Source of the DNA: Acetivibrio alkalicellulosi
GTDB taxonomy: Bacteria > Bacillota > Clostridia > Acetivibrionales > Acetivibrionaceae
NCBI GenBank assembly: GCA_008125075.1
Contig: VLTH01000001.1
Span: 966,671 to 1,030,670 of the forward strand
Length of the DNA: 64,000 nt
Reading direction: 5' to 3'
Under the pieces are notes generated by a model. It had not been told where the DNA came from. It saw nothing but the letters and a program-made list of their open reading frames with translations, and did no database searches. The translations under genes were made by a program, and so were the position numbers. Shown here in pieces: positions 1,233 through 18,330 of this stretch; position 1 is the first letter of the stretch; each line of letters begins with the position of its first letter.

Positions 1233-4200
1233 TTATAGTTCATCGAGTAATTTATATAATACTACTGCTGCTTGTGCTCTATTTGCAGTTGCTAGAGGTG
1301 CAAAGTCACCGTTTGGCATTCCACTAATGATTCCTGCCTTTTGCATTGCAGCCACAGCTTCTTTTGCATATCCAGCTATTTGGTCGCCGTCTGCAAAATC
1401 TATAGCTTGTGTCGTATTAGTTAAAGTAATACCTACCGCTTTTAGTGTATTGAAAGTCATTACAGCCATATCCTGACGGCTTATTTCATCATTTACTCCA
1501 AATGATCCATCAGTATTACCTTTAACAACACCTAACTCATAAGCAGTTATAATAGCCTGTTCGTACCATGCACCTGACTCTACATCAGTAAATGGATTTT
1601 CTCCTGTTCCTTCGGATACTAAATCAAATGTGTTAACAAGCATTTGTACAAATTCTGCTCTTGTTACATTCTTTAAAGGATCAAAGGAATCAGCAGATAC
1701 ACCTTTTACAATGTTACGGGCTGCTAAAGCTATTATGCTGTCTTTAGCCCAAGGAGTCTTATCCATATCAGCCAAACTAATTTTAGCTGGTATAGCAACA
1801 TAGTTACCAAAGTATTTAGTTTTAAACTGAATCATTCCATTATTGTAACGACCATTTTTAACTACTTCAAAGTTACCATTTTCATCTATGTAGTATAATA
1901 CAACCTGCCCTTTATTTAGTCCTGTTTCAATACTGTAATTAAAGGACACTTTTACCTTTTGATTTTGTTCAAGTTGGCTTAAATCTTTTCCATCAACAGA
2001 TAAATTAAAACTATAAACTGTGTTCGTTCCAACAATATTTTTAACATCTTCAGTTAAACTATCTGCATCTGCTATACTTACTTTTAATTCAATGTTAGCA
2101 TCTTCTTCAAAATCAGTAAACAAGGATACTGGCAATTCTATTTTAGCAATACCTATAATTACTTCAATTTCCTCAATACCAGATTCTGATATCATTTTCA
2201 CCAAATCAACACTAAGTTTTACTAAAACGTTCTTTTCATCTTCAATACCTGTAACTTCAATTGCTATTTTTCCATCTTTTTTATTATCTAGTGCTTCTTG
2301 GATGTATTCTTCACTAACATTTACAATGCCGTCTTCGTCAACAGTCAATTCAACTTTTGCTGGTTCATCACCTGGAACACCTGGAACTTCCTCTACAGGA
2401 GATTCTATTTCTACACTAGGTGTAGGTGTTGGTGTTGGTGTTGGATTAACTATAGTACCACCACCACCGCCACTTGGAGGTGAAGTTGGCACTGGTGTCG
2501 CTGGAGGCTCTGTTACTGGCGGCTCTGTTACTGGCGGCTCACCAACTTCTTTAACAAGTACAAGTGTACCAAGTCCTGAAACATTCTGCCAGGATTGTCC
2601 TGATGGATCATTCCAAATCATTACTGTATCACGTGTACCATTTCCATTTTCATCGTTATTAACTTGTAAATCAAATCCAAGAATAGTGCCAATCTCTGGA
2701 TTTATGTGGTCAAAATCTATAGCAGCTTCTACCACATAACCTACTCCTTCAATGATTCTTGTTGCTGTAGTAAAGTTACTAGCACTTGCATTTCCATTGT
2801 ATGACTGAACATTATTAAAGTTAACACGATATTGACCATCATCATCATCATATACACTTGTCTTTGCGTTGTTTTGATCTAAAAAGATCTCTATAGAGTC
2901 TTGCTGATATGTATCAGCACTTGCATCTGATAATAGTCTGTCATATACCATAGCATAAACATATAGTTTTTCGTCATCCCATAATAGGTGAAAATCTGCT
3001 GTAGAAGCTATACTTGCAGTTCCTTCAACTCTAACATCTGTTGTATATAATAATGCATCCTTCCATATTTCATCTTTCTCTCCATCAATTACAGGAGTAC
3101 CTTTTGTTACATATGCTATTTTATTAGCAGATGCAAATAATAATTCCCCATTACCTTTATTGTCTATATGCTGGGCATTACGAGGATCACTCCATGATAC
3201 AATAACACCATTTCCACCAAACTCAGAACCATCATCAATACCCATATCTGTAATTCTAACATCAAATTTTATTCTACTTCCTAATTCATAACTACCATCT
3301 AATTTTATTTTATTCTCCCAAATATAGCCTCCATCTACTTCAACAACATTTTGATCATTACGCATAACTGTAATTGGAGTAGTGTCACCTTCTACAAATA
3401 TTTCAATCATATCAGTATCAGTATTTGTTTCATCTGCAACTTCAACTCTCACATACAGGTAATCCTCATCCCAAAGTGTTCTGATTTCACCTTGCAATGA
3501 ACCAATACTATCAGTTATTAATGCTGGAAGAGTAAACCATAATACATCATTTTGGCCTAATACTGGTGTTCCCTGACCAGAGTTTCCATCTTGAATGAAT
3601 ATAGGAAGCCTTGATTCTTCAACATCTACTACTGCCTCATACATACCCCAGTACGCTGGTTTAGCTTGATGCTGTCTATCAAATGGGAATGGAGCATCTT
3701 GGCGAGTTAACCCTCCACGATTATGAAGCCATGTATGGTCATCGGCAATACCCCAAAGTGTTACATTACTAATCCAACCATTTGGATTTCCCTGTTCTTT
3801 ACCTTCTTCATTCAATCGAACTAATTCTTCAAACAATTCCTTATAACGATATCCCTGTCTTGCTAAGATAACTTCGGGAATTTCATCGTTAGGATAAACA
3901 GTATTATCAGTATAAACAGATACATCAAGTTCTGTAATCTGAATGTCAAAACCTGCTTCAGCAAATAACCTTATAGAGTCAGAAATTAATTGAATTGAAG
4001 GTCCTGCTATGTTAATGTGTGTTTGATGTCCTACACCATCAATAGGTGTATTCCTTTCATCTCTAAGATATGTAGCTAATTCAAAAAGTGCATCACGTTT
4101 TGCTGGATTGTGAGTATTGTAATCGTTTATATATAATCTTACATTATTACCAGGATGATGGAAATCAAGAGCAGCTCTTGTCTCTTTAAATGCTACCTCA

Positions 4201-6686
4201 ACAAAATCTTTGCCTGTAATACTGTTCCAATAAGTATCACGCATTCCATCTTCTCTATTTGCATCAATTACTTCATTAACTACGTCTATATCAGTTAAAA
4301 CGTCACCAAACTCTTCCATAGCTGCCCAAATATAATCCTTCAAACGTTCAAGAACTAATTCTTTATTTTCAGGTGTTGACTCCAGCCAATTACCATTCCC
4401 ATCTTGTAGCATCCAATCTGAACCTTGACTATGCCATACCAATGTATGGAACCTGAAATCCATTTTTTCATGTTCTTCTTTACCTTCATTATAAGCTCTC
4501 ACATAATCAGCAAGAACCTTACCATCAGCAAAATGATACTCACCTAAGCCTCTACTCATGTATGATGGCTTCATAGCATTTTCAGCAACTACAGAATTAT
4601 AATGAAGTTCAAACAATTCCCCTACAGGCATTGTTAAGTGAATATTTTCTACTGCCGCACCAATTTTAAAATAAGGAGCATAAATCTCTCTTAAGCTTCC
4701 AATATCTCTTTGAACAGGCAAAGGTCCCTGTAAAGTCCCTAAATGAGTCAGTGTAAAGTCATCAATATAAAACATTTTATCTTCTTCATAGCCAGAAGGT
4801 AATTCAACATAGACATTTAAAACCTCTGGCGTAAATGTAAGTTCAAAAGTTCCTTTTAATTCAACCCATTCATCAGCAGTTACATCTATATCTGGTGTTA
4901 CATTAGTCCAAGGGCCACTAGTTCCTGCTTCTACAGTAATACGAAGTGGAGTAATAGATTGCCCTTCCGCCATTTTAACCCATACAGATAATTCATACTC
5001 ATGTCCTCTATGCATTTTTCCCATAACATCCAATAATGGACCTTCATATTGGGTACGTGTAGTTGTCAACAAACTCCTTGAGCCTCCAGATGTCCTATTT
5101 GCAGCATCTGTAATTTCGACAGTAGTCCTATCAGCATCTCTCGGCACCCATTTTTCTGCATATGAGTCATCTTCTTCAAAGTCAGAAACAATACCTGATT
5201 GATCCCTCAAAGCTGCAATTCTAACATTATCAATATAAAATTCTACAGTTTCGTTATTTGCTTCAACATAAAATACAAGTTCATCCATATTTTCAGTGTA
5301 CGTATATGAACCATTAATTTCAACCCAATCAGTATTTAACACTTCTTCACTAGATATGTTATTCCATCTCGTGTCACCTTCTGAGGGGTTTTCTTCCATA
5401 GACATTGTGACTCTAATTGCCTCCTCTGGTTCTTCTGCAAGTTTAACATATAAAGAAATATCATATTGAGTGTCTTTTTCTAATAAATTAAGCACATTTA
5501 AGCTTGGTCCATTCCAATTATCAGTCCTATCTGATGCTTTTAGACTGTAGTCTCCATCATAGGCAGCTTCTGTAGTTGCAGAAATTGAACATCCTCTTGG
5601 ACTCCATCCTTGAGTTGTGCCATCCTCAAAATCATAAAACAAGATATCTTCATCATCTTTATCTTGCTCAGGTGCTGGAGCAGTCATTATAATTGTAATA
5701 TCATCAATGTAAAATGAATCAGTTTCTCCTGAGCTTTCAATGTACAATGTTATTTCATTTAAATCTTCTAGAAATGAATATGTACCACTTAAATACGTCC
5801 ACTCTGTATCAGATACTGTTGTCTGAGCTACAGTATCCCAACCTTGACCACTTGCACCATTACGCTGAATAGTTATTTTAACTGTCCTTTCCTCATCAGG
5901 TATATCAGCAAGCTTAACCCATCCACTTATCTCATATGCAGCACCTTTTTCAAGGATATCTAAAGCATTTAAGCTAGGTCCATTCCAATCTTCTGACCTA
6001 CCTGTTGTCAATAAACTACGTTCTCCAGAATAGAATTCTACATCTGTTGACGTTAATGTTACACTACCTCTTGGGCTCCAACCCTGTGCTCCATCTTCAA
6101 AATCATAATTTGCTATTACTACAGGTCCTTTTACAGGTGGTGGAGCTGTCATAGTGATTGTCACATCATCAATGTAAAATGAGTCTGTTTCCCCTGAACT
6201 TTCAACATATAATATCATTTCAGTTAAGTCTTGTTGAAAAGAATATGTACCGCTTAATAAAGCCCATCCTGTATCAGTTACTGTTGTTTGAGCCACAGTA
6301 TCCCAATCTTGGCCACCTTCACCATCCCGTTGAATAGTTATTCTTATAGTTCTCGAATCATCTGGCACATCAGTTAGTTTTACCCAACCATTTATTTCAT
6401 AAACTGCATCTTTTTCAAGAATACTTAAAGCATTTAAACTTGGCCCATGCCAATTATCTGTTCTACCAGTTGTCAATAAACTACGTTCTCCAGAATATGA
6501 TTCTAAATCTGATGATGTTAATGTTACACTGCCTCTTGTCACCCATCCCTGAGTTCCATCTTCAAAATCATATTCTGCTATTACCACTGGTGTAAATCCT
6601 TCTTCTCCATATACTACTAAACTAGTAGAAAATAATGAAGTACATAGAAAAACTACTGCTACTAAAAAACACATTTTTTTAAACAT
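1233..6686 (-). CDS. SLH-anchored multidomain GH10 endo-1,4-beta-xylanase (paralogue 1)
   Basis: This 1817-residue secreted enzyme should cut the beta-1,4-xylan backbone at the cell surface. Domains in order: signal peptide (about 1-27); four CBM22/CBM_4_9-like modules (about 35-180, 188-335, 347-495, 500-650), the first two close copies; GH10 catalytic domain (about 655-1020) with acid/base E805 in DVVNEVID and nucleophile E919 in ITELDVS; two CBM9-like modules (about 1028-1190, 1198-1380); Pro/Thr/Gly linker (1385-1425); a beta-rich pre-SLH region (about 1440-1635); three SLH repeats (about 1640-1817) that bind the cell wall polymer. The 114-residue spacing of the two Glu is normal for GH10. 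The layout matches XynX-type xylanases of Clostridium and Thermoanaerobacterium. The ATG follows GGGGAGGGTT. The GH10-to-SLH half is very close to paralogue 2. Confidence 0.95.
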   Translation of the reverse strand: MFKKMCFLVAVVFLCTSLFSTSLVVYGEEGFTPVVIAEYDFEDGTQGWVTRGSVTLTSSDLESYSGERSLLTTGRTDNWHGPSLNALSILEKDAVYEINGWVKLTDVPDDSRTIRITIQRDGEGGQDWDTVAQTTVTDTGWALLSGTYSFQQDLTEMILYVESSGETDSFYIDDVTITMTAPPPVKGPVVIANYDFEDGAQGWSPRGSVTLTSTDVEFYSGERSLLTTGRSEDWNGPSLNALDILEKGAAYEISGWVKLADIPDEERTVKITIQRNGASGQGWDTVAQTTVSDTEWTYLSGTYSFLEDLNEITLYIESSGETDSFYIDDITIIMTAPAPEQDKDDEDILFYDFEDGTTQGWSPRGCSISATTEAAYDGDYSLKASDRTDNWNGPSLNVLNLLEKDTQYDISLYVKLAEEPEEAIRVTMSMEENPSEGDTRWNNISSEEVLNTDWVEINGSYTYTENMDELVFYVEANNETVEFYIDNVRIAALRDQSGIVSDFEEDDSYAEKWVPRDADRTTVEITDAANRTSGGSRSLLTTTRTQYEGPLLDVMGKMHRGHEYELSVWVKMAEGQSITPLRITVEAGTSGPWTNVTPDIDVTADEWVELKGTFELTFTPEVLNVYVELPSGYEEDKMFYIDDFTLTHLGTLQGPLPVQRDIGSLREIYAPYFKIGAAVENIHLTMPVGELFELHYNSVVAENAMKPSYMSRGLGEYHFADGKVLADYVRAYNEGKEEHEKMDFRFHTLVWHSQGSDWMLQDGNGNWLESTPENKELVLERLKDYIWAAMEEFGDVLTDIDVVNEVIDANREDGMRDTYWNSITGKDFVEVAFKETRAALDFHHPGNNVRLYINDYNTHNPAKRDALFELATYLRDERNTPIDGVGHQTHINIAGPSIQLISDSIRLFAEAGFDIQITELDVSVYTDNTVYPNDEIPEVILARQGYRYKELFEELVRLNEEGKEQGNPNGWISNVTLWGIADDHTWLHNRGGLTRQDAPFPFDRQHQAKPAYWGMYEAVVDVEESRLPIFIQDGNSGQGTPVLGQNDVLWFTLPALITDSIGSLQGEIRTLWDEDYLYVRVEVADETNTDTDMIEIFVEGDTTPITVMRNDQNVVEVDGGYIWENKIKLDGSYELGSRIKFDVRITDMGIDDGSEFGGNGVIVSWSDPRNAQHIDNKGNGELLFASANKIAYVTKGTPVIDGEKDEIWKDALLYTTDVRVEGTASIASTADFHLLWDDEKLYVYAMVYDRLLSDASADTYQQDSIEIFLDQNNAKTSVYDDDDGQYRVNFNNVQSYNGNASASNFTTATRIIEGVGYVVEAAIDFDHINPEIGTILGFDLQVNNDENGNGTRDTVMIWNDPSGQSWQNVSGLGTLVLVKEVGEPPVTEPPVTEPPATPVPTSPPSGGGGGTIVNPTPTPTPTPSVEIESPVEEVPGVPGDEPAKVELTVDEDGIVNVSEEYIQEALDNKKDGKIAIEVTGIEDEKNVLVKLSVDLVKMISESGIEEIEVIIGIAKIELPVSLFTDFEEDANIELKVSIADADSLTEDVKNIVGTNTVYSFNLSVDGKDLSQLEQNQKVKVSFNYSIETGLNKGQVVLYYIDENGNFEVVKNGRYNNGMIQFKTKYFGNYVAIPAKISLADMDKTPWAKDSIIALAARNIVKGVSADSFDPLKNVTRAEFVQMLVNTFDLVSEGTGENPFTDVESGAWYEQAIITAYELGVVKGNTDGSFGVNDEISRQDMAVMTFNTLKAVGITLTNTTQAIDFADGDQIAGYAKEAVAAMQKAGIISGMPNGDFAPLATANRAQAAVVLYKLLDEL

Positions 6687-6923: not shown

Positions 6924-7062
6924 CTAATATGTATGAAGTAAAAATAATAGTAAAATTTTACAGCCACATAAATTATCTCCTCCTTTCATAAAAAAGGATA
7001 AAAAAGATTGTAAATACTAATATTATGCACTACACCTTACTATTTCTCAATTACTTACTCCC
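6924..7062 (-). promoter_or_regulatory. long leader of xylanase 1 with motifs shared with xylanase 2
   Basis: The gene-free stretch 6687-7573 holds a leader of about 460 bases between promoter and start codon. On the minus strand it contains GGGAGTA (7056-7062) and GTGTAGTG (7028-7035), 20 bases apart. The xylanase 2 leader has the same words 19 bases apart. A purine-rich GGAGGAGAT (6974-6982) follows, and a GTGCATT/AATGCAC inverted repeat lies at 6738-6760. The shared spacing suggests a conserved RNA or regulator site. No known riboswitch core is recognisable. Confidence 0.45.
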
Positions 7063-7155
7063 GTAAAATTTATCTATATTTTTAAATTATTTAATAATAC
7101 TAAAAATTAAGCAAACATGATGATAAAAAAAATAGTCAAATAAGATTATATAATA

Positions 7156-7184
7156 ATTTTAACATATGATATATATCATGTAAA
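7156..7184 (-). promoter_or_regulatory. xylanase 1 promoter
   Basis: On the minus strand, -35 TTTACA (7179-7184) and -10 TAAAAT (7156-7161) are separated by exactly 17 bases. The xylanase 2 promoter has the same two hexamers, the same spacing and the same upstream TTTAG. The spacer plus -35 edge is almost palindromic (ACATGATATATATCATATGT), which would suit a repressor sitting between the boxes. I see no other supported feature in 7185-7376 except a repeat-like stretch near 7270 (GTGAAAAGCGGAAATAAT). Confidence 0.7.
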
Positions 7185-7376
7185 CTAAAATTTGGCTAAA
7201 GCCTTATAAATCAACAGCTATAGAACCCTTTAATAGCTTTCATTATAGGCCTTATTTGATGACAAATAGGCTCCGTGAAAAGCGGAAATAATTTATATAT
7301 GAAAAGTTTATCTTATACTAAAAAGTGACCTGGGAACTTTATGTGGAGAATCTACTTCACTTGAAGATTATAAGAG

Positions 7377-7427
7377 AAAGGGCTGTTGAATAATGAATAA
7401 AAAACTCATTACACATCAGCCCTTTTT
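7377..7427. terminator. two-part hairpin, terminator-like
   Basis: An outer stem AAAGGGCTG / CAGCCCTTT and an inner stem TAATGA / TCATTA form a long hairpin followed on the plus strand by T5. It lies between the xylanase 2 stop and the xylanase 1 promoter. It may end xylanase 2 transcripts or be a small mobile palindrome. Confidence 0.45.
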
Positions 7428-7530
7428 ATGAATTAAGACTTAATTAAACTTTATTAAGCATCATTAATAAATAAATATTAGTTTTACATTCTCTCTTAGT
7501 TATATTCTTGTAAACAAATGAAAAACTTAA

Positions 7531-7560
7531 AAGCCAAGGGGGCTCGATACCCCCTCACTT
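7531..7560 (-). terminator. short GC hairpin after xylanase 2
   Basis: GGGGG CTCGATAC CCCC lies 14-35 bases past the xylanase 2 stop and probably ends its transcript. The CTCGATACCCC word also belongs to the interspersed palindrome family seen near 39 kb and at the right edge of the window. Confidence 0.45.
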
Positions 7561-7573
7561 TTATTTAAATATA

Positions 7574-10500
7574 TTAGAGTTCATCAAGTAATTTATATAA
7601 TATTACTGCAGCTTGTGCTCTATTTGCAGTTGCCACAGGTGCAAAGTCACCGTTTGGCATTCCACTAATTATTCCTGCTTGTTGCATTGCAGACACAGCA
7701 TCTTTTGCATATCCAGATATTACATCACCATCTGCAAAATCTATAGCTTGTGTAGTGTTAGTTAAAGTAATACCTACTGCTTTTAGTGTATTGAATGTCA
7801 TTACAGCCATATCCTGACGGCTTATTTCATCATTTACTCCAAAAGTTCCATCTGTTTTACCTCTAACAATACCTAACTCATAAGCAGTTATAATAGCTTT
7901 TTGATACCACGCACCTGATTCTACATCTGTGAATGGATTTTCTCCAGCTCCCTCAGATACCAAATCAAAGGTATTAACAAGCATTTGTACAAATTCTGCT
8001 CTTGTTACATTCTTTAAAGGAACAAAGGAATCTGCAGAAACACCTTTTACAATGTCACGGGCAGCTAAAGCTACTATACTGTCTTTAGCCCAAGGAGTCT
8101 TATCCATATCAGCCAAACTAATTTCAACTGGTAAAGCAACATAGTGACTAAAGTGTTTAGTTTTAAATTGAACCATTCCATTGTTGTAACGGCCATTTTT
8201 AACTACTTCAAATTCACCATTTTCATTAATGTAATATACCACTACCTGAGCTGAATTTAACCCTGTTTGAAGTGAGTAATCAAAGGATACCTTAACCTTT
8301 TGATTTTCTCCAAATTGGCTAACTCTTTGTCCACCAACAGATAAATTAAATCTGTAAACAGTGTTTGTTCCAACTTTTTTTGTAACCTCTTCAGGTAGGC
8401 TATCACTAGCTGCTTTACTTACATTCAATTCAATGTCAGCACCTTCTTCAAAATCAGTAAATAGGGTGACTGGCAATTCAACTTTAGCAATACCTGTATT
8501 TACTTCAATCTCCTTAACTTCAGCCTCAGATGCAGTTTTTACCAAGTCAACACTAAGTTTAACTGCAACATCCTTTTCATCTTCTACACCAGTTACTTCA
8601 ACTTTTATTCTTCCATCTATTTTATTTCCCAATGCTTCTTGTATGTCTTCTTCACTTACATTTGCTGTTGCTTTTCCTTCTTCATCAACAGTTACTTCAA
8701 CTTTAACTGCAACAGGTTCTGCTGGCTTAGGTGTTGGTGTTGATGTTGGCGTTGGTGTCGGTGTCGGTGTTGGTGTAGGTGTTGGTGTAGGTGTTGGTGT
8801 TGAGCCACCACCACTTGGTGCTCCTGGTGTTGATGTTGGTGTTGATGTTGGTGTAGGTGTTGGTGTAGGTGTTAATGGTGTAGGTGTTGGTTCTGGAGTT
8901 GGTATAACTGGCTCATCAACTTCCTCAACAAGTACAACTGTACCTATACCTGAAAGATTCTGCCATGATTGTCCTGATGGATCATTCCAAATCATTACAG
9001 TATCACGTGTACCATTTCCGTTTGCATCGTTATTAACTTGTAAATCAAATCCCAAAATAGTACCTATTACTGGAGTTATATGATCAAAATCTATAGCTGC
9101 CTCTACTACATAACCTACACCCTCAATAACTCTTGTTGCTGTAGTAAAATTACTATCACTTGCATTTCCGTTATAAGATTGAACATTATTGAAGTTCACA
9201 CGATATTGACCATCATCATCATCGTATAAATCTGTCTTTGCGTTGTTTTGATCTAAAAAGATTTCTACTGAGTCTTGTTGATATGAATCAGCACTTGCAT
9301 CTGATAATAAACTGTCGTATACAAAAGCGTAAATATATAGCTTATCATCATCCCATAAGAGACGAAAATCAGCTTTAGACGCTATACTTGCATTTCCTTG
9401 AACTGCAACCTCTGTAGTATATAATAATGTTTCGCTCCAAATATCATCTCTTTCTCCATTAATCTCAGGAGTTCCTTTTGGTGCATAGGCAATTCTATTG
9501 ATTTCAGATAAGACCAAGGTACCATTGCCAACATTGTCTAAGTGCTGTGCGTTACGTGGATCACTCCAAGATATAATTGAACTGTTTCCACCAAACTCAG
9601 AATCGCTATCAAAAATACCCATATCTGTTATTCTAACGTCAAATAGTATTTCACGACCTAAAGTGTTTTCACCAGTTAATTCAATTGCACTTTCCCAAAC
9701 ATAACCACCATCTACTTCATAAACATCATCATCACGATAAACTATAATAGGGTCTATACTTCCTTCTATAAATACTTCTATCATGTCTTTATCTTCATTA
9801 TCCTCATCTATTGTTTCGTCTTTTACTTCAACTCTAACATATAAATAGTCATCATCCCATAAAGTTCTGATATCTGCCTGCAGACTACCAATTTGATCAG
9901 TTCTTAAAGGTGCCATGGCAAACCATTTATAGTCGTCTGACCCAAGTACAGGTGTACCTTGTCCAGCCTTACCATCTTGCGTGAATATTGGAATCATAGA
10001 TTCGTCTACAGGTACAACAGCTTCATACATACCCCAATAAGCTGGTTTGGCTTGAAGTTGTCTATCAAATGGGAATGGAGCATCTTTACGGGTAATTCCG
10101 CCAAAATTATCAAGCCATGTGTGATTGTCAGCAATACCCCAAAGTGTCACATTACTGATCCAGCCATCTGGATTATCTTCAGTTCTTCCTTCTTCATTTA
10201 ATCTAACTAATTCTTCAAACAATTCTTTATAACGATATCCTTGTCTTGCTAAAATGTTAGAAGGAATAACATCATCCGGATACACTGTATTGTCTGTATA
10301 AACAGATACATCTAGCTCTGTAATCTGTGTATCAAAACCTTCTAAAGCAAACAACCTTATAGAGTCAGAAATTAGCTGTAGTGATGGTCCAGCTATGTTG
10401 ATGTGAGTTTGATGTCCAATACCATCGATTGGCGCACCTTTTTCATCTCTAAGATACATAACTAAGTCATAAAGGGCATCTCGTTTTGCAGGAACATGAG

Positions 10501-13105
10501 TACTATAATCGTTTATGTATAATCTCACATTATTACCTTCATGGTGGTAATCAAGAGCAGCACGCGCTTCTTTAAATGCTACTTCAATAAAGTCTCTACC
10601 TGTTATACGAGACCAGCCACTATCTCTCAATCCAAAGTGTCCATTTGCATCAATTACTTCGTTGACAACATCTATATCGGTTACAACATCGCCAAATTCC
10701 TCCATAGCTGCCCAGATATAGTCTGTTAAACGATCTAGTACTAATGTTTTGTTTTCTTCTGTAGCTTCTAACTCATTACCATCATCGTCTTGTAGCATCC
10801 AGTCAGCACCCTGGCTATGCCATACCAAAGTATGGAATCTGAAATCTAATTTATCATCAGGATTTTCATCATTGTGAGCTCTTACATGATCAGCAAGCAC
10901 TCTACCCTGTTCAAAATTATAGTCTTCAAAACCTCTGCTCATATATTCTGGTTTCATTGCATTTTCAGCAACAAGAGCATTATAATGAATATCAAGTAAA
11001 GCTCTTTCTGGTCTATCCAACTGAACATTTTCTATAGCTGCACCAATTTTAAAATAAGGTGCATAAATCTCTTTTAAGCTGCCTATATTAGTTTGTACAG
11101 GCAATGGACCATCAACGGAACCTTTATAAGTTAAAGTGAAATCATCGATATAAAACATCTTGTTTTCATCATGAGCATCGGCTAACTCAACATAAGCATA
11201 TAAAACAGATGCAGTTGATGCTAGTTCATAAGTACCTTTTAATTCAACCCATTCATCAGTTACAAGTACATTTGCTGATACATTACGATATGGACCACTT
11301 GGACCTGATTGAACACTTATACGAAGTGTCGCTGATTGCCCTTCAGCCATTTTAACCCAAACAGATAAGTCATATTCATGTCCAGCATGCATTTTGCCAA
11401 GAACATCTAATAATGGACCTTCGTATTGTGCTTTTGTTGTTGTCAATAAACTCCTTGTTCCGCCTTCAGTACGGTTAACACCCTCGACTATTTCAACAGT
11501 AGTTTTGGAGGCATCCCTTGGAACCCAGCTATCCGCATATGGGTCATCAACTTCAAAATCAGATACAATACCTGATTGATCAAGTACTTCATATTCTATA
11601 ATTTCTACATCATCAATATATACATCAGAAAATGGAGATTCTTCGTCTGATGATTCTACCCAAATAATAAATTCTGTTGTGTTATCTGGAACTTCATATT
11701 CTACTATACTAAAAGTAGTCCAATCCTCTGAAGTAACTTCTTGGTTGCCAGTTAACCATGGATACTTATTATCTAAGGCTGGTGAATCAACTTTAGATCC
11801 TATATGGAATTGTCCAGAACCTTCAGATAATCTTACTTTCAATGATATGGTATACTTATTGCCAACTTTAACTAAATCGGTAATATTTAGTGCAGGACTA
11901 CTGTTTGCAGCTTCCCTGTTACTAAATACAAGTGACTTATTATCGCCCCAGTCGTAAATGCCTACTTCACCATTGCTACCCCATGATAAACTTTGCCAAC
12001 CACCAATTTCTTCATCTTCAAAATCCTGAAACAGAACAGCTTTTTCTGTTGGTTCAGTTTCTAAAGAAAATTCTATAATTTCTACATCATCAATATATAC
12101 ATCAGAAAATGGAGCTTCTTCATCTGATGACTCTACCCAAATGATAAATTCTGCTGTATTATCTGGAACTTCATATTCTATTATACTAAAAGTAGTCCAA
12201 TCCTCTGAAGTAACTTCTTGGTCGCCAGTTAACCATGGATACTGATTATCTAATACTGGTGAATCAACTTTAGATGCTATACGGAATTGTCCAGTACCTT
12301 CGGATAATCTTACTTTCAATGATATGGTATACTTATTGCCAACTTGAACTAAATCAGTAATATCTAAAGCTGCACTACTGTTTGCAGCATCCCTATTATT
12401 AAATACAAGTGACTTATTATCGCTCCAGTCATAAATGTCTACTTCACCATTACCACCCCACGATAGTCTTTGCCAGCCACCAATTTCTTCGTCTTCAAAA
12501 TCTTGAAACAGAACAGTTCTTTCTGTTGGCTCAGGTAATGTGGAAAATTCTACAATTTCTACATCATCAATATATACATCTGAAAACGGAGCTTCTTCGT
12601 CTGATGATTCTAGCCAAATGATAAATTCTGCTGTATTATTTGGAACTTCATATTCTACTATACTAAAAGTAGTCCAATCCTCTGAAGTAACTTCTTGGTT
12701 GTCAGTTAACCACGGATACTGATTATCTAATGCTGGTGAATCAACTTTAGATGCTATATGAAATTGTCCAGTACCTTCAGATAATCTTACTTTTAATGAT
12801 ATGGTATACTTATTGCCAACTTGAACTAAATCAGTAATATCTATAGCTGCACTACTGTTTGCAGCAACCCTGTTATTAAATACAAGTGACTTATTATCGC
12901 TCCAGTCATAAATGCCAACTTCACCATTACCACCCCATGATAGCCTTTGCCAACCACCAATTTCTTCATCCTCAAAATCTTGAGATAAAATTATCCTTCC
13001 AGTAGGCTCAAATACTTCATCCCCAAATACTACTAAAATATTAGCTGGAAATAGTGAACTAAATATAAAAACTACCATTACTAAAAAACATATCTTTTTA
13101 ATCAT
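7574..13105 (-). CDS. SLH-anchored multidomain GH10 endo-1,4-beta-xylanase (paralogue 2)
   Basis: This 1843-residue surface xylanase has a signal peptide (about 1-28); three nearly identical carbohydrate-binding-like repeats with a 159-residue period (about 38-190, 197-348, 356-506); one CBM22-like module (about 510-662); GH10 (about 667-1032) with acid/base E816 in DVVNEVID and nucleophile E930 in ITELDVS; two CBM9-like modules (about 1040-1200, 1210-1395); a Thr-Pro linker (about 1400-1460); a pre-SLH region; and three SLH repeats (about 1665-1843). From the last CBM22 onward it closely follows paralogue 1, but the first three modules are a different type. It lies just upstream of paralogue 1 and downstream of the two-component genes. 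The start follows a GGAGGATTATGTAGA ribosome site. Confidence 0.95.
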   Translation of the reverse strand: MIKKICFLVMVVFIFSSLFPANILVVFGDEVFEPTGRIILSQDFEDEEIGGWQRLSWGGNGEVGIYDWSDNKSLVFNNRVAANSSAAIDITDLVQVGNKYTISLKVRLSEGTGQFHIASKVDSPALDNQYPWLTDNQEVTSEDWTTFSIVEYEVPNNTAEFIIWLESSDEEAPFSDVYIDDVEIVEFSTLPEPTERTVLFQDFEDEEIGGWQRLSWGGNGEVDIYDWSDNKSLVFNNRDAANSSAALDITDLVQVGNKYTISLKVRLSEGTGQFRIASKVDSPVLDNQYPWLTGDQEVTSEDWTTFSIIEYEVPDNTAEFIIWVESSDEEAPFSDVYIDDVEIIEFSLETEPTEKAVLFQDFEDEEIGGWQSLSWGSNGEVGIYDWGDNKSLVFSNREAANSSPALNITDLVKVGNKYTISLKVRLSEGSGQFHIGSKVDSPALDNKYPWLTGNQEVTSEDWTTFSIVEYEVPDNTTEFIIWVESSDEESPFSDVYIDDVEIIEYEVLDQSGIVSDFEVDDPYADSWVPRDASKTTVEIVEGVNRTEGGTRSLLTTTKAQYEGPLLDVLGKMHAGHEYDLSVWVKMAEGQSATLRISVQSGPSGPYRNVSANVLVTDEWVELKGTYELASTASVLYAYVELADAHDENKMFYIDDFTLTYKGSVDGPLPVQTNIGSLKEIYAPYFKIGAAIENVQLDRPERALLDIHYNALVAENAMKPEYMSRGFEDYNFEQGRVLADHVRAHNDENPDDKLDFRFHTLVWHSQGADWMLQDDDGNELEATEENKTLVLDRLTDYIWAAMEEFGDVVTDIDVVNEVIDANGHFGLRDSGWSRITGRDFIEVAFKEARAALDYHHEGNNVRLYINDYSTHVPAKRDALYDLVMYLRDEKGAPIDGIGHQTHINIAGPSLQLISDSIRLFALEGFDTQITELDVSVYTDNTVYPDDVIPSNILARQGYRYKELFEELVRLNEEGRTEDNPDGWISNVTLWGIADNHTWLDNFGGITRKDAPFPFDRQLQAKPAYWGMYEAVVPVDESMIPIFTQDGKAGQGTPVLGSDDYKWFAMAPLRTDQIGSLQADIRTLWDDDYLYVRVEVKDETIDEDNEDKDMIEVFIEGSIDPIIVYRDDDVYEVDGGYVWESAIELTGENTLGREILFDVRITDMGIFDSDSEFGGNSSIISWSDPRNAQHLDNVGNGTLVLSEINRIAYAPKGTPEINGERDDIWSETLLYTTEVAVQGNASIASKADFRLLWDDDKLYIYAFVYDSLLSDASADSYQQDSVEIFLDQNNAKTDLYDDDDGQYRVNFNNVQSYNGNASDSNFTTATRVIEGVGYVVEAAIDFDHITPVIGTILGFDLQVNNDANGNGTRDTVMIWNDPSGQSWQNLSGIGTVVLVEEVDEPVIPTPEPTPTPLTPTPTPTPTSTPTSTPGAPSGGGSTPTPTPTPTPTPTPTPTPTSTPTPKPAEPVAVKVEVTVDEEGKATANVSEEDIQEALGNKIDGRIKVEVTGVEDEKDVAVKLSVDLVKTASEAEVKEIEVNTGIAKVELPVTLFTDFEEGADIELNVSKAASDSLPEEVTKKVGTNTVYRFNLSVGGQRVSQFGENQKVKVSFDYSLQTGLNSAQVVVYYINENGEFEVVKNGRYNNGMVQFKTKHFSHYVALPVEISLADMDKTPWAKDSIVALAARDIVKGVSADSFVPLKNVTRAEFVQMLVNTFDLVSEGAGENPFTDVESGAWYQKAIITAYELGIVRGKTDGTFGVNDEISRQDMAVMTFNTLKAVGITLTNTTQAIDFADGDVISGYAKDAVSAMQQAGIISGMPNGDFAPVATANRAQAAVILYKLLDEL
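8720..8895. repeat. hexamer tandem repeat encoding the Thr-Pro linker
   Basis: Plus-strand GGTGTT/GGTGTC/GGTGTA hexamers repeat many times in two blocks and encode (Thr-Pro)n in xylanase 2. Such arrays can change length by slippage in whole codon pairs, altering linker length without breaking the frame. It is not a CRISPR array, because there are no spacers. Confidence 0.85.
11590..12994 (-). repeat. three tandem 477-bp repeats inside xylanase 2
   Basis: The three N-terminal binding modules are encoded by direct repeats of 159 codons that stay highly similar at both DNA and protein level (for example QDFEDEEIGGWQ at residues 42, 201 and 360). Recent duplication or ongoing gene conversion is likely. 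Confidence 0.8.
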
Positions 13106-13350: not shown

Positions 13351-13410
13351 TACCTCCCCCTTCCTAAAAGGAAGTTCACTACACTTTCCCATATTTAGTT
13401 TTATACTCCC
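13351..13410 (-). promoter_or_regulatory. long leader of xylanase 2 with motifs shared with xylanase 1
   Basis: The leader runs about 415 bases from promoter to ATG within the gene-free stretch 13106-13654. On the minus strand GGGAGTA (13404-13410) precedes GTGTAGTG (13377-13384) by 19 bases. A small hairpin CTTCC/GGAAG and a GGGGGAGGTA purine block follow, as in xylanase 1. Function is not known; an RNA structure or regulator site is an inference from conservation. Confidence 0.45.
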
Positions 13411-13654: not shown

Positions 13655-16201
13655 CTAAAATTCAATAACAAATTTTGTACCTTTACCCTGAAAACTCTCA
13701 CAGGATATACTTCCACCTAATACTTGTGTAACTATATTATATACTATATGAAGTCCTAGGCCTGTTCCACCGTTTGCACGATTTGTTGTGAAAAACGGCT
13801 CAAATATTTTCTTTAAATTTTCTTCGCTAATTCCCTTTCCATCATCTCTATAAATAATAGTAGTTTTATTTTTATTTTTTAGTATCTCAATAGAGATTTT
13901 TCCCTCTATGTCCTTGTCAAAACCATGGATTACAGAGTTCATTACAAGGTTTGTTATTATTTGTGCAATTGCACCAGGATAGTTTTCAATTTCAATATTT
14001 CCATCGCAATTTACATCAATCCGTACTTTTCTATTTTTTAAATCTGGACTTAAACTTGTTAATATAGTATTTATATAATCACTTATATTAAACACCATTT
14101 TTTCTTCGATTGATTGGTCTACAGATACTTTTTTTAAACTTTTTACAAGTTTTGAGGTTCTTTCTAAGTTATTAGATATAATAGATGAGATTTCATTTAA
14201 GCTATTTAAAAAGTTTTCTAATTGAGATCTGGTTATTTTATTTTCTTTATATAAGTTTTGAAAATTATTTATTTTTTCTAGCTGACATGAAATAGCAGTA
14301 ATGCTAACTCCTATAGGTGTATTTATCTCGTGGGCAAGCCCAGCAACTAACTTACCAATTGAAGCCATTTTTTCTGATTCAACTAAATGTGCCTGTGTCT
14401 CTTTTAGCAAATCATAAGCATCTTTAATTTGCATATTATACTCTGCTAGTTCACTATTTGCTTCTTTTAATTGGCCTGTTCTTTCTTCAAGTTTCATAAA
14501 TGAAATTATACCTTTTAGTGCAATACTCATTTGGATGGCTAATGCATAATAGTACGAGTTGTATTTATTTCCAATTTCGTATACAATAAACCCAAACACT
14601 TCATTTTCAACTACAAGATTTTGAATAGCGAGGTACATATTTATATTATTAAAACGTTTCCTTAAGAAATCATTTGGATTTTCAACAATTATATTAGATT
14701 GTATTCTTTGTCCATTATCATATTCAAAGGCTAAATTACAGTTTTTATACTTGTTGTCTGATTCGTTAAATAAAAAAACAAAACATCTTCTAATGGTATT
14801 TTCATATAAAAACCTTTCTGTTATTATATCAAACACCCTGTCTATATCATATGCTGACATGATTAATTTAATAGTTTCAGCTAAGTTTTCATTTGACTTT
14901 TTAGCTTCTTTTTTCTCTTTATATAAAAGAATTTGGTCTATTTCTTTAATTGTAACAAGAGTTTTAGTTAGAAGCTCACTTATCCAAAAGTCATCTATAT
15001 TTAAACCCTTTAAGAAGTAAAAAATATTATTAAATAATATTTTCATAAAATCAGCTTCCGTGTTTTTTAAAGTTTCATTTTGTACACAAAAAAGCATTTG
15101 ATCTTTAAGTTCATTAATGAATGTTTTATGACATTTTTTGTCACAACTTTCAAACATTTTCTCAATAAGTTTATCTAAATCAAATGGCATTATTTCTGCT
15201 TCTTTTTTAATTTTATCAATTATATATTGCTTCTCATAAGAAAAATCTTTTGAATAATTAGCCTCCTCTATTTTTTCAAAACTATAATTATTAAATGTAT
15301 CAATTTTGCAACCGCAAGATTCACGAATAATAACTTTTCCAGGAACACTTATAGCTTTTTCTATTGTACCTGTAGTTAAAAGTTTAATAAGATTTTCACA
15401 TGCACTAGCTCCTAGTTCTTCAAAGGGGTAATAAATTGTTGTAACAGAAGGTATATTGTATTTCATGAAATCTCCATCATCATAAGCTACAAAAGCTACA
15501 TCTTCAGGTACACAGATACCTCTGTCCTTTAAGCTATTAATTAGAGATAACAACTCTTCACCAAGCATACCAAATACAGCATCAAAATTCATTTTTAATT
15601 CATCAACTAAAATAGTTTCTGCACGCTTCATTCTTTTATGATAGGGATAGCTATAAATGTCATCATGATCTAAAACCAATCGAGGATCATATAGGCCTTG
15701 TTCCATAAGAGTATTTCTATAAACATCAAATCTTACATCAGGATTGCATGGAGGTAAATATACAATACGCTTATATCCATGATCCTTTATTAAATGTAAG
15801 AGCATCTCTTTTACATATATTCCACCAGGCATAAAAACACTAGGTATATCTTCAAATCCTTTACCAATGCTATAAAGCTGAGTAGTCTCTTGAAATCTCT
15901 TTTTAAAAGCATTAAAATATTCAATATTAAAATCAAACATCCATCCAACAAACATAAGACCATCTAACTTTAATGATTCCATAAAATCATAAAGCATATT
16001 AATTTCCTTATCTAATTTTTCATGCCAATATCTTTTTACAGCAACAAACTTAATAAGATTTACATTGTTCTTTTTTGCAGTATTAACTACTCCATTAATC
16101 ATTGGAATAACTTCTTCATAAAGTTCTTCATCATCTGGCATTAAAAATCCTATTGTAATTTCTGATTTTTTTTTTGTTAGTGTATTTATAATCTTACTCA
16201 T
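13655..16201 (-). CDS. soluble histidine kinase with LacI-type sugar-binding sensor domain
   Basis: The product has 848 residues. I chose the ATG preceded by GGAGG and a 5-base gap, 12 bases inside the longest frame. Residues about 14-296 resemble the periplasmic-binding-protein/LacI sensor fold and end in RESCGC, a motif typical of such sensors fused to signalling domains. A middle GAF-like region (about 430-570) and a short coiled coil lead into the kinase: H-box with H624 in LAHEINTP, N-box (ITNLVMNSV), DDGKGI, FEPFFTT and GGTGLGLHIV. There is no signal peptide, membrane segment or DNA-binding domain, so it should sense a cytoplasmic ligand, perhaps a sugar. The response regulator gene lies directly upstream and xylanase 2 directly downstream, so control of xylan use is a reasonable but unproven role. 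Confidence 0.85.
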   Translation of the reverse strand: MSKIINTLTKKKSEITIGFLMPDDEELYEEVIPMINGVVNTAKKNNVNLIKFVAVKRYWHEKLDKEINMLYDFMESLKLDGLMFVGWMFDFNIEYFNAFKKRFQETTQLYSIGKGFEDIPSVFMPGGIYVKEMLLHLIKDHGYKRIVYLPPCNPDVRFDVYRNTLMEQGLYDPRLVLDHDDIYSYPYHKRMKRAETILVDELKMNFDAVFGMLGEELLSLINSLKDRGICVPEDVAFVAYDDGDFMKYNIPSVTTIYYPFEELGASACENLIKLLTTGTIEKAISVPGKVIIRESCGCKIDTFNNYSFEKIEEANYSKDFSYEKQYIIDKIKKEAEIMPFDLDKLIEKMFESCDKKCHKTFINELKDQMLFCVQNETLKNTEADFMKILFNNIFYFLKGLNIDDFWISELLTKTLVTIKEIDQILLYKEKKEAKKSNENLAETIKLIMSAYDIDRVFDIITERFLYENTIRRCFVFLFNESDNKYKNCNLAFEYDNGQRIQSNIIVENPNDFLRKRFNNINMYLAIQNLVVENEVFGFIVYEIGNKYNSYYYALAIQMSIALKGIISFMKLEERTGQLKEANSELAEYNMQIKDAYDLLKETQAHLVESEKMASIGKLVAGLAHEINTPIGVSITAISCQLEKINNFQNLYKENKITRSQLENFLNSLNEISSIISNNLERTSKLVKSLKKVSVDQSIEEKMVFNISDYINTILTSLSPDLKNRKVRIDVNCDGNIEIENYPGAIAQIITNLVMNSVIHGFDKDIEGKISIEILKNKNKTTIIYRDDGKGISEENLKKIFEPFFTTNRANGGTGLGLHIVYNIVTQVLGGSISCESFQGKGTKFVIEF

Positions 16202-16260
16202 AACTGCCTCCAAAAAAAAACACTGGTTATTAATTCCCTATTTTACTTCTAAACCACATT

Positions 16261-16311
16261 ACTTACTGTGCCCCGGATGTTTAGCTTTAGCTAAACCAGT
16301 TCACTAAGTAA
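16261..16311. repeat. interspersed palindromic repeat
   Basis: An inner hairpin GTTTAGC TTTA GCTAAAC sits inside an outer ACTTACT/AGTAAG pairing, in the 167-bp gap between the kinase and the response regulator. The same core GATGTTTAGCTTTAGCTAAAC followed by AGTTCACTAA recurs at 39059-39093. It may attenuate the downstream kinase transcript. Confidence 0.65.
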
Positions 16312-16368
16312 GAACACTATAAGTAAGAGGTTTAATTCGCTGCTAATTTTACTTTATCATCGACAAAT

Positions 16369-17919
16369 TTACTTATCAGGAAAAGAATCACGAATAGCTA
16401 ATACCTCATTTATATATTTAAAAAATATATCTAATAGATTTGGATCAAAGTGCTTTCCTCTTTCTTCTTTAAAATACTCAATAATTTTGTCTAATTCCCA
16501 AGCAGGTTTATAAACCCTTACAGTACCAAGTGCATCAAAAACATCAGCTATAGCCGTTATTCTACCATAGATGTGAATGTCATTCCCTTTAAGACCATTT
16601 GGGTAACCTGTTCCATTGTATTTTTCATGATGCTGTAAAGCTATAATACTAGCAGTTTTTATTATGTCTTTATTAGAACCTTCAAGCATTTGATAGCCTA
16701 TTTCTGTATGGGTCTTCATAACTTCAAATTCTTCTTTTGTGAGCTTGCCAGGTTTATTCAAGATACTGCTTGGTATACCCATTTTACCTATATCATGCAT
16801 AGCTGAAGCAAGTGAAATTACTTCAGATTCTTCTTCAGATAACCCATATTTTAATGCGATTAATTTTGAAAACTCAGCAACTCTCTTAACATGATTGCCT
16901 GTTTCTTTTGAACGAGCTTCAGCAATTTCACCAAGAGTAAATATTATTTCTTTTTGCGTATCCCGAAGCTTCAAGTTTAAAGAAGTGTTTTCAAAGGCAG
17001 AAGAAATATTGCTGCTAAATATCTCAATTAGCGTGTTATCAATATCATTATACTCAATTATATTTTCAATGTATAATATATACTCCATGTTGGAATTACT
17101 TTTAAAATGAATTATTAAGTTATCATCGATACTTATTGTTCTCTTTTCTCTTAGTGTATCTTCTATCTTTTGATAACTATTTAAAAAGGTTACATCTTTT
17201 ACCCTTTTATTTATATGCTTTGCATAAGAACCATTTCCAGATGTAATAAAAAAATCGCCGTTTTCTTTAAACGCTATAAATCCTGAAGGTTTTTTATACA
17301 TAGAGCTACTGTTAATACATAGTATAGATGTTATTTGATCTAATACAATAGATGACAGCTTATTTATGGATTGGACTTCAAAAAGATTATTGGTTGCTTC
17401 AACAATTTTTTCAAGTCCCTTTTTATTTTGATTTGCTAAGTGTATACTATCATAAGCTCTCAGTGAAGATACCATTGTAGTAAAAAGTTTTTGAGCTGTA
17501 AGTTCTGTTTTTTCTTTATAGTCATTGATGTCAAAATCAAAAATAACTTTTCTTTCTGGAGCTTGGCCAGGTTGACCCGTTCGTAAAATAATCCTTATTT
17601 CATCATTTTTAATATCATTTCTTATATACTGAACCAGTTTTAGTCCAGAGTCCTCTTGTTCCATTACAACATCCAGCAAAATTACAGCAATATCAGGATT
17701 TTCATATATTACTTCTTTTGCTTCTTTTTCTGAGTATGCACTTAAAAATAAGAGCTTGGAGTTTTTGTATACAAAATCGCTTAAGGCAAGTTTAGTGACG
17801 GTGTGAACTTCCTCATCATCATCTACTATAAGTACTTTTAACTTTCTACTTTCATTGTTCTCAAGTAATGTTTCTTCTTCCTCAAAAAAATCCATGTACT
17901 CAGAATTGGTATTTTGCAT
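16369..17919 (-). CDS. response regulator with HD-GYP cyclic-di-GMP phosphodiesterase domain
   Basis: The product has 516 residues. A receiver domain (about 27-150) has acidic residues D33-D35 and phospho-acceptor D83 in LLDVVME. A DUF3369/GAF-like middle (about 160-310) follows. The HD-GYP domain (about 325-505) has H375-D376 in HDIGKMGIP and the HHEKYNGTGYP signature at 430-440. HD-GYP enzymes hydrolyse cyclic-di-GMP; the metal and GYP residues look complete, so activity is likely. It is the natural partner of the sensor kinase that follows 167 bp downstream. The ATG is preceded by GGAGGTATTAGGTA. It has no DNA-binding domain, so any effect on the xylanases would go through cyclic-di-GMP. 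Confidence 0.9.
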   Translation of the reverse strand: MQNTNSEYMDFFEEEETLLENNESRKLKVLIVDDDEEVHTVTKLALSDFVYKNSKLLFLSAYSEKEAKEVIYENPDIAVILLDVVMEQEDSGLKLVQYIRNDIKNDEIRIILRTGQPGQAPERKVIFDFDINDYKEKTELTAQKLFTTMVSSLRAYDSIHLANQNKKGLEKIVEATNNLFEVQSINKLSSIVLDQITSILCINSSSMYKKPSGFIAFKENGDFFITSGNGSYAKHINKRVKDVTFLNSYQKIEDTLREKRTISIDDNLIIHFKSNSNMEYILYIENIIEYNDIDNTLIEIFSSNISSAFENTSLNLKLRDTQKEIIFTLGEIAEARSKETGNHVKRVAEFSKLIALKYGLSEEESEVISLASAMHDIGKMGIPSSILNKPGKLTKEEFEVMKTHTEIGYQMLEGSNKDIIKTASIIALQHHEKYNGTGYPNGLKGNDIHIYGRITAIADVFDALGTVRVYKPAWELDKIIEYFKEERGKHFDPNLLDIFFKYINEVLAIRDSFPDK

Positions 17920-18330
17920 TACCTAATACCTCCATTAAAGGAATTTAAATAAAATTTCCTACTTTTGTAAGGTTTGCTTTTACACATTATACTATTACCA
18001 TATTTTTGTACCATCTTATGTAACTAACCCCATTCCCAATATCTTTCATACATAGATTATATCTGTTGTAAAAGCAACCATTATATTATTTATTTGTCTA
18101 TTATACATTCATGAGCAAAGGGTTCAGCAAAATAGGATTGCGAATGAATGTCACTTGCGTATATGCCTGTTTGCGAAGCAAACATATGGCATGGGCATAA
18201 AATCAAGGGTTCTATTCTGAAAAGTTTTTTCAGAATAGACATTCATGAGCAAAAGACTCATCAACATAGTATATCTTTTTATATTATCGGATAAATAATA
18301 AAAAAAATTAATAGTTTTATAGTTTTGTTT
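17920..18330. repeat. gene-free gap filled with palindromic repeats
   Basis: The 411-bp gap between the VWA operon end and the HD-GYP gene holds direct repeats CATTCATGAGCAAA (18106-18119 and 18240-18253), a hairpin TGTTTGC GAA GCAAACA (18168-18184), and a 13-bp perfect hairpin TCTATTCTGAAAA / TTTTCAGAATAGA (18211-18239). Bases 18227-18254 recur exactly, inverted, at 46243-46270. A TATAAT near 17986-17991 could serve the HD-GYP gene, but its -35 is weak. Confidence 0.7.

Follow-up and report, generated by a model that had tools for sequence, protein, structure and literature searches.

How might a clostridium that degrades plant fibre adjust its cyclic di-GMP (c-di-GMP) to a metabolite inside the cell? 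The question is raised by two neighbouring minus-strand genes in a 64,000-nucleotide stretch of the 5.3-Mb genome of Acetivibrio alkalicellulosi (C1:966671-1030670; the whole stretch is called the window here). One gene encodes a soluble LacI-type sensor histidine kinase of 848 amino acids (13655-16201), and the other a response regulator of 516 amino acids (16369-17919) built of a receiver (REC) domain, DUF3369 and an HD-GYP domain. The two probably form a cytosolic two-component system in which a metabolite inside the cell acts through the kinase on the breakdown of c-di-GMP by the HD-GYP domain. The parts are known and ordinary; the wiring is an unusual and recurring one, a new variant. A soluble LacI-type kinase that lends itself to purification together with its phosphodiesterase would allow a direct test of how c-di-GMP in clostridia that degrade fibre is set by a metabolite inside the cell. 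Both open reading frames (ORFs) lie where a first-pass annotation had placed a soluble sugar-sensor-type kinase and a receiver/HD-GYP neighbour, and Pfam and Foldseek confirm their domain make-up.

Domain architecture of the kinase and the regulator

The ORF of the kinase runs over 13655-16213 on the minus strand with a TTG codon; the better start is the ATG at 16201, which has a ribosome-binding site, GGAGG, at 16207-16211. Residues 16-298 (15308-16156) are a LacI/Peripla_BP-like ligand domain, as indicated by Pfam (Peripla_BP_3 above its cut-off at residues 143-300, E 4e-20), by sequence matches to CcpA in the PDB, by Foldseek and by a tree. The N-terminus of the AlphaFold model resembles LacI/CcpA effector domains (TM-score by target about 0.8; E 4e-15 for the best match), and the C-terminus resembles HK853-type cores; because the model has a mean pLDDT (its confidence score) of 72, structural detail is tentative. 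The ligand domain ends in the motif SCGC (residues 295-298; 15308-15319), which is followed by a helical bundle and a GAF-like region (residues 320-545; 14567-15244). This middle region gave no Pfam match and was not separately matched to a known fold, and it is read as GAF-like from the order of the secondary-structure elements in the model. A coiled coil in the model connects it to the DHp and catalytic ATPase domains (residues 618-847; 13661-14350), where HATPase_c is matched above its cut-off (E 1e-22). The residues that we take to be the H, N, G1, F and G2 boxes of an orthodox histidine kinase are present and invariant across the 9 rows of alignment A5 (H624, N755, D786/G788/G790, F800/F803 and G814/G816). 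The phospho-acceptor histidine, H624, is kept in 15 of the 16 rows of alignment A1 and replaced in one relative. One LacI kinase of a tandem pair (L133:11147-13285) carries Asn instead of this histidine (VANEINNPIG) and is possibly the pseudokinase member of that pair.

No 19-residue window with a hydrophobicity above 1.6 was found in the kinase or the regulator, while five membrane-control kinases have 30-63 such windows each. No helix-turn-helix was matched by Pfam, and only 15 residues precede the effector domain of the kinase. The claim that the ligand domain is fused to a histidine kinase, with no membrane or DNA-binding part, is confirmed; the first-pass annotation had left out the middle region that lies between ligand domain and kinase core. 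Soluble histidine kinases exist, so the missing membrane sensor does not exclude an orthodox histidine kinase.

The regulator exceeds the Pfam cut-off for Response_reg (31.3 against 30.2 bits) and likewise those for DUF3369 and HD_5, and its AlphaFold model has a mean pLDDT of 80. The REC domain (17506-17835) carries the hallmarks of a response regulator: the acidic pocket D33/D34, the phospho-acceptor D83, T114 and K135. It is joined through the DUF3369 linker domain (16972-17472), which the first-pass annotation had lacked, to the HD-GYP domain (16435-16929), with E339, H343, H375, D376, K379, H404, H430, H431 and D459. The HD, metal-ligand and GYP positions of active HD-GYP phosphodiesterases are all present, where the choice of metal-binding residues is our assumption. 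The key residues of the receiver and the HD-GYP domain are invariant across the 14 rows of alignment A3, and K135, K379, H431 and D459 are nearly invariant across the 18 rows of A6. PmGH (PDB 4mcw), which is also the best structural match of the model in Foldseek, can be aligned to the HD-GYP domain over residues 291-514 (E 4e-65). Judged by its sequence, the regulator is a probable c-di-GMP phosphodiesterase, and the receiver/HD-GYP protein predicted beside the kinase has its key residues intact.

Probable partnership of the two proteins and origin of the kinase

Among 58 genomes of the order, nine contain relatives of the regulator, 19 in total. Four of them (HD-GYP only, or hybrid) were set aside, and the other 15, including that of the window and one cut near its end (L102), cover all three domains. 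A kinase of the window kinase's family lies within two ORFs of 13 of these 15; the two others are L123, on a 4.3-kb contig, and L124. The sensors of the 13 adjoining kinases are diverse. Six are LacI-type, one kinase is cut by a contig end (L130), and the remainder of those scanned carry HAMP (L064), dCache (L100), HAMP with a dCache match below the cut-off (L102) or FIST (L104, 16515-18626); the kinases L104 (5074-6921) and L125 stood outside the scan. A gene for a solute-binding protein adjoins the kinase in L064, L100 and L104, and an orphan kinase in L135. The pair also recurs in five of six Spirochaetales loci with LacI kinases.

The distances between kinases correlate with those between receivers (mirror-tree r = 0.62) for 24 pairs from several phyla, which we chose from those available. 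None of 5000 permutations reached this value, the best giving 0.43, and swapping partners inside a genome lowered r in all four genomes where this was done. Within the window genome, the nearest other relative of the regulator shares 31% identity with it and adjoins a kinase of its own. The occurrence of the pair elsewhere was thus checked, with the result that it recurs in the order and in Spirochaetales and that its two members diverge in a correlated manner. By these comparisons, the kinase and the regulator are likely a cognate pair.

The window kinase has a composite history. In a tree of 45 ligand domains, its sensor clusters with GGDEF-EAL-linked sensors and L066 (13 rows, 100/100), whereas the HD-GYP-linked clostridial sensors form a separate clade (14 rows, 100/100). 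Its core matches HD-GYP-linked kinases at E values of 1e-62 to 1e-88, against about 1e-4 to 1e-12 for GGDEF-EAL-linked ones. A kinase tree likewise groups it with HD-GYP-linked kinases, apart from the GGDEF-linked class L061/L097 (100/100); this tree leaves its place inside the clade undecided, and GGDEF-EAL-linked kinases were left out because they are too diverged. The regulator is 75% identical to that of a sister locus in genome G007, which is judged syntenic on ORF order, length and start. In that locus the kinase comes before the regulator and bears the other of the two sensor types. Because its sensor groups with the GGDEF-EAL-linked lineage, the window kinase was rejected as a straightforward orthologue of the kinase in the sister locus. 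It is, on the evidence of the trees and alignments, a hybrid with a sensor of the GGDEF-EAL-linked type and a core of the HD-GYP-linked type. The conflict between sensor and core beside a conserved regulator therefore indicates that sensor and kinase recombined, or that the kinase was replaced.

A wider set of LacI-kinase loci places the pair among related arrangements. A contig search with the window kinase as single query found nothing; a profile search with A1 gave 383 relatives, of which the best 80 were kept. Overlapping loci were merged by hand into 33 distinct LacI-kinase loci. Since these were collected by similarity to the window kinase, the figures are counts and not rates for all LacI kinases. 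In 22 of the 33, a c-di-GMP enzyme (HD-GYP, GGDEF or GGDEF-EAL) is in the same chain or close by, that is, on the same strand and next to the LacI kinase or two ORFs away. The enzyme is REC-DUF3369-HD-GYP in 11 loci (the window, L062, L063, L065, L103, L129, L140, L141, L143, L144 and L169); in L103, the second LacI kinase of a tandem, which adjoins the regulator, is split into two ORFs, a LacI part and a kinase part (6925-9107). L099 has a PAS-HD-GYP protein with no receiver. L097 encodes REC-DUF3369-GGDEF, and so does L061, where it is divided between two ORFs that overlap. Seven loci have GGDEF-EAL proteins, as REC-GGDEF-EAL by Pfam in L090 and L095 and by domain matches only in L091, L093, L094, L096 and L098, those of L091 and L093 being cut by contig ends. 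L066:9731-13423 is a single chain of 1230 amino acids, LacI-kinase-REC-GGDEF by Pfam. Among the listed neighbours of the LacI-kinase loci, no other receiver was matched at E 1e-3, a search that can miss distant receiver types; in L137 a receiver-like ORF, read by eye, lies two places away on the opposite strand. In a sample of the class, the sensor part alone gave matches at E 1e-30 in 2 of 391 genomes, the window genome itself included, with at most five candidates scored per genome in the rows listed. In genome G030, the LacI kinases of HD-GYP-linked type number seven (L099, two in L129, L132, two in L133, and L134) and the REC-DUF3369-HD-GYP proteins two; this excess of kinases suggests that several LacI-type sensors feed one output regulator. 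As a side observation, two regions of G028 (L127 and L128) share HD-GYP proteins (905 and 814 amino acids) and repeated recombinase/transposase-like ORFs by eye, which suggests a duplicated mobile segment.

The SCGC motif is a further common element. In 44 of 45 LacI-type signalling sensors CGC comes right where the ligand fold ends, the exception reading SCSC, and the motif is missing in the two LacI repressors of the window genome that were examined. A literature search on the phrase 'SCGC motif' found nothing. An unlikely extension is that LacI-fold domains with a terminal SCGC make up a general class of cytosolic input modules for c-di-GMP signalling whose members are interchangeable. Such domains would be swapped among HD-GYP, GGDEF and GGDEF-EAL regulators, with several kinases per regulator in arrays, and the CxC hinge would be a thiol- or metal-dependent gate, so that metabolite and redox or metal state are read jointly.

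The domains, the intact catalytic residues, the lack of membrane segments, the recurrence of the pair and the correlated divergence come from the sequence, and they are compatible with the following route. A small metabolite would shut the LacI-type clamshell of the kinase, and the SCGC hinge, followed by the middle region and the coiled coil, would transmit the movement to the kinase core. There it would alter autophosphorylation at H624, or else phosphatase activity. The phosphoryl group would move from H624 to D83 of the adjoining response regulator, and the phosphorylated receiver would, via DUF3369, set the hydrolysis of c-di-GMP by the HD-GYP domain. Phosphotransfer and phosphodiesterase activity are steps that we infer, together with the ligand, the sign of the response and the behaviour controlled, for which the first-pass annotation had proposed attachment or enzyme display.

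Ligand, neighbouring xylanases and rival explanations

Several observations weigh against a two-component system in which a metabolite, plausibly a sugar, controls the breakdown of c-di-GMP. The HisKA match of the kinase, at 22.2 bits, is under the Pfam cut-off of 26.9. The mirror-tree correlation is due in part to shared ancestry. The genome also encodes a second kinase of the family (C2:895431; 48% identity over the kinase part) that lies apart from any regulator, and the order of the two genes is reversed in sister genome G007. No c-di-GMP enzyme is close by in 11 of the 33 LacI-kinase loci (L047, L048, L049, L050, L092 at a contig end, L132, L133, L134, L136, L137 and L142), of which four are in the window genome, and the set itself is a biased census, gathered by similarity to the window kinase. 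The pocket of the sensor is also unusual. At a pair of positions where the ten other rows of alignment A4 have Asn-Asp, the window sensor has Leu213-Gly214, and most of its own lineage departs from Asn-Asp too (A2); R157 and D241 are invariant in A4. Such pocket residues touch sugars in LacI, and a sugar ligand cannot be assumed, because the Asn-Asp pair is replaced in the window and in most of the lineage. Of the earlier proposal that the ligand is a sugar, the suitability of the fold stands, but the replacement of this pair speaks against it. The ligand is plausibly a sugar or sugar-like compound, and it could be a modified sugar or another metabolite.

On the minus strand, genes of MoxR/DUF58/VWA type (the MoxR/DUF58 operon type beyond the VWA gene was assigned from a reading of ORFs) are followed by the response regulator, a 167-bp gap that holds the ribosome-binding site of the kinase (16202-16368), the kinase and two GH10 xylanases with SLH repeats. 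The nearer xylanase (7574-13105, minus strand) carries CBM_4_9, CBM9 and SLH repeats, and the second (1233-6686, minus strand) carries CBMs and SLH repeats, all by Pfam. An operon of the pair with the xylanases was rejected because 549 bp separate the kinase gene from the nearer xylanase gene, a gap that the first-pass annotation had passed over. The terminator-like site detected at 13352-13375 was not above chance (one found, mean 1.0).

Proximity to xylanase genes was counted in seven genomes with GH10/GH11 genes, pooling paired, orphan, GGDEF-linked and regulator-only units to a total of 25. For five of the 25, a GH10/GH11 gene is no more than 10 kb away, where random placement would give 1.11 (Poisson P 0.006); the values are four against 0.69 within 5 kb (P 0.005) and five against 1.84 within 20 kb (P 0.04). 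The control, a set of 24 further kinase loci from the window genome, gave one within 5 kb, four within 10 kb and four within 20 kb. Since the control (4/24) resembles the family units (5/25) at 10 kb, closeness to glycosidases may simply be common among the kinases of such genomes. In the sister locus, about 2.7 kb separate the regulator gene from a GH11 xylanase gene; beyond the latter come genes for an AraC-type regulator, for a class II aldolase and for an FGGY kinase, neighbours that are suggestive of pentose use. L064 and L097 are near GH10 genes and L099 is near a GH5 cellulase. The spirochaete pairs and several of the clostridial ones, by contrast, have genes of other kinds around them: all ORFs of the six spirochaete loci were listed, five neighbours from three of these loci were scanned by Pfam, and none of the five is a glycosidase. 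Co-occurrence with polysaccharide genes in other genomes was thus looked for and found, as in the GH11 gene of the sister locus. The proposed tie to the xylanases survives to the extent of this co-occurrence, but the lack of an operon and the similar control kinases count against it, and we regard the link of the pair to the nearby xylanases as weak.

It is quite possible, if somewhat less than probable, that the pair is a c-di-GMP module sensing a general metabolite or the energy or redox state, with the xylanases as chance neighbours unrelated to xylan. The lack of an operon with the xylanases and the proximity of the control kinases to GH10/GH11 genes agree with this view, as do pairs that lie beside a hydrogenase-type gene (L169) or an EPSP-synthase/MurA-type gene (L144), both by Pfam, or beside ribosomal and other housekeeping genes (L103 and L129, read from ORFs). 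The replaced Asn-Asp pair would suit a general metabolite, and the conserved SCGC could respond to thiols or metal. However, proximity to GH10/GH11 genes exceeds random placement, the family units exceed the control kinases within 5 kb (4/25 against 1/24), the sister locus combines the xylanase with a sugar kinase and an aldolase, and sugar-type solute-binding proteins adjoin related kinases in four loci (L064, L100, L104 and L135).

The identity of the partners and the activity of the output domain each admit a further rival. That the kinase feeds a distant regulator, with the HD-GYP protein served by another kinase and their adjacency incidental, would accord with the orphan second kinase and the reversed gene order, but the adjacency in 13 of 15 cases, the distance correlation and the low identity of the next best regulator leave this explanation hardly any likelihood. 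Inactive members exist among HD-GYP proteins, and the regulator might accordingly bind c-di-GMP or a protein in the main rather than act as a phosphodiesterase; this is very improbable in view of its intact HD and GYP motifs, its alignment with PmGH and the activity of VCA0210, which has the same architecture. A cytosolic two-component system ending in the breakdown of c-di-GMP is the reading that we favour.

The remaining features of the window are context. A dispersed repeat of about 170 bp, with no strand assigned, is located in the interval from the VWA gene to that of the response regulator (18102-18271) and has at least 47 further rows in its own genome, with 40 of 252 candidates scored. 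Rfam at its gathering thresholds gave no match within the window. Dockerin-like and SLH proteins were seen in the genome stretches examined. The protein at 30877-32814 has a class-A beta-lactamase-type domain (Pfam, above the cut-off) C-terminal to a copper amine oxidase N-terminal domain; against NCBIfam, the best 25 of 34 models were all under their own cut-offs. The protein of 2282 amino acids encoded at 52600-59448 carries CBM96 and RHS repeats; an IS66-family transposase gene (49395-51050) is a few kb away.

c-di-GMP in the genome and comparison with known systems

Five c-di-GMP-I riboswitch aptamers are present in the window genome. Tandem c-di-GMP-I riboswitches precede a gene for a secreted protein of 279-291 amino acids in L238, L245 and L249, in the window genome and in G007, and this gene is convergent with cohesin-like genes as read from ORFs. 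These findings suggest that c-di-GMP is read in this organism; they do not imply control of those genes by the window pair. A search for c-di-GMP-II riboswitches found none, and its controls gave no match either. A conserved RNA of about 185-200 nt that seems to stand alone was also observed in the genome (L246:6220-6425, L247:5940-6130 and L248:1845-2030). It holds a c-di-GMP-I aptamer inside an invariant outer helix (GGTATAAGGA / TCCTTATACC) and is followed by a T run. No sense-strand ORF of at least 60 amino acids lies downstream in L247 and L248; the TTG ORF of 121 amino acids downstream in L246 was judged spurious because the sister genome has an ORF of 109 amino acids on the other strand. 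A copy was matched in all nine family genomes searched, some matches being short, and alignment A7 holds 20 copies from 9 genomes, with a fold z of -3.5 for one copy. Since the outer helix does not vary, covariation cannot support it. The RNA is possibly a c-di-GMP-sensing small RNA.

Among the matches listed in literature searches, none dealt with sugar control of c-di-GMP in cellulosome-forming clostridia, and searches directed at the pair itself, at the DUF, at the motif and at LacI-like kinases yielded no paper on this pair. Related systems are known. In RpfC/RpfG, a histidine kinase controls a receiver/HD-GYP phosphodiesterase, as proposed for the window pair; RpfC is a membrane hybrid kinase and RpfG is not known to contain DUF3369, both unlike the window pair. 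PmGH of Persephonella marina matches the window regulator by sequence in its HD-GYP part alone, with no receiver match. LacI/CcpA repressors share the ligand fold of the sensor, whereas the kinase has no DNA-binding domain and its sensor ends in SCGC. A LacI-type one-component diguanylate cyclase (L144:7549-9723) has the same kind of sensor with SCGC fused directly to GGDEF; in contrast to the window pair, it has no phosphorelay and would lead to synthesis of c-di-GMP rather than breakdown. XylFII-LytS of clostridia is a sugar-linked two-component system that senses outside the cell.

A 2022 review of c-di-GMP inputs includes the view that a periplasmic-binding-protein-like domain may bind diverse solutes, sugars among them (PMC8846402), and biofilm formation is reported to go with raised c-di-GMP in the fibre degrader Caldicellulosiruptor (PMC4342205). 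VCA0210 of V. cholerae, described as a REC, DUF3369 and HD-GYP protein that hydrolyses c-di-GMP (PMC4212101), has the same three domains as the window regulator, which differs in having a soluble LacI-type sensor kinase as its neighbour. In R. cellulolyticum, the xylan-sensing XuaDRS and the cellobiose-sensing CuaDRS are reported to control transcription of xynB (PMC12175519). XuaDRS, CuaDRS and XylFII-LytS are two-component systems like the proposed window pair; they are linked to sugars and tied to genes for plant polysaccharides, features that the pair may share.

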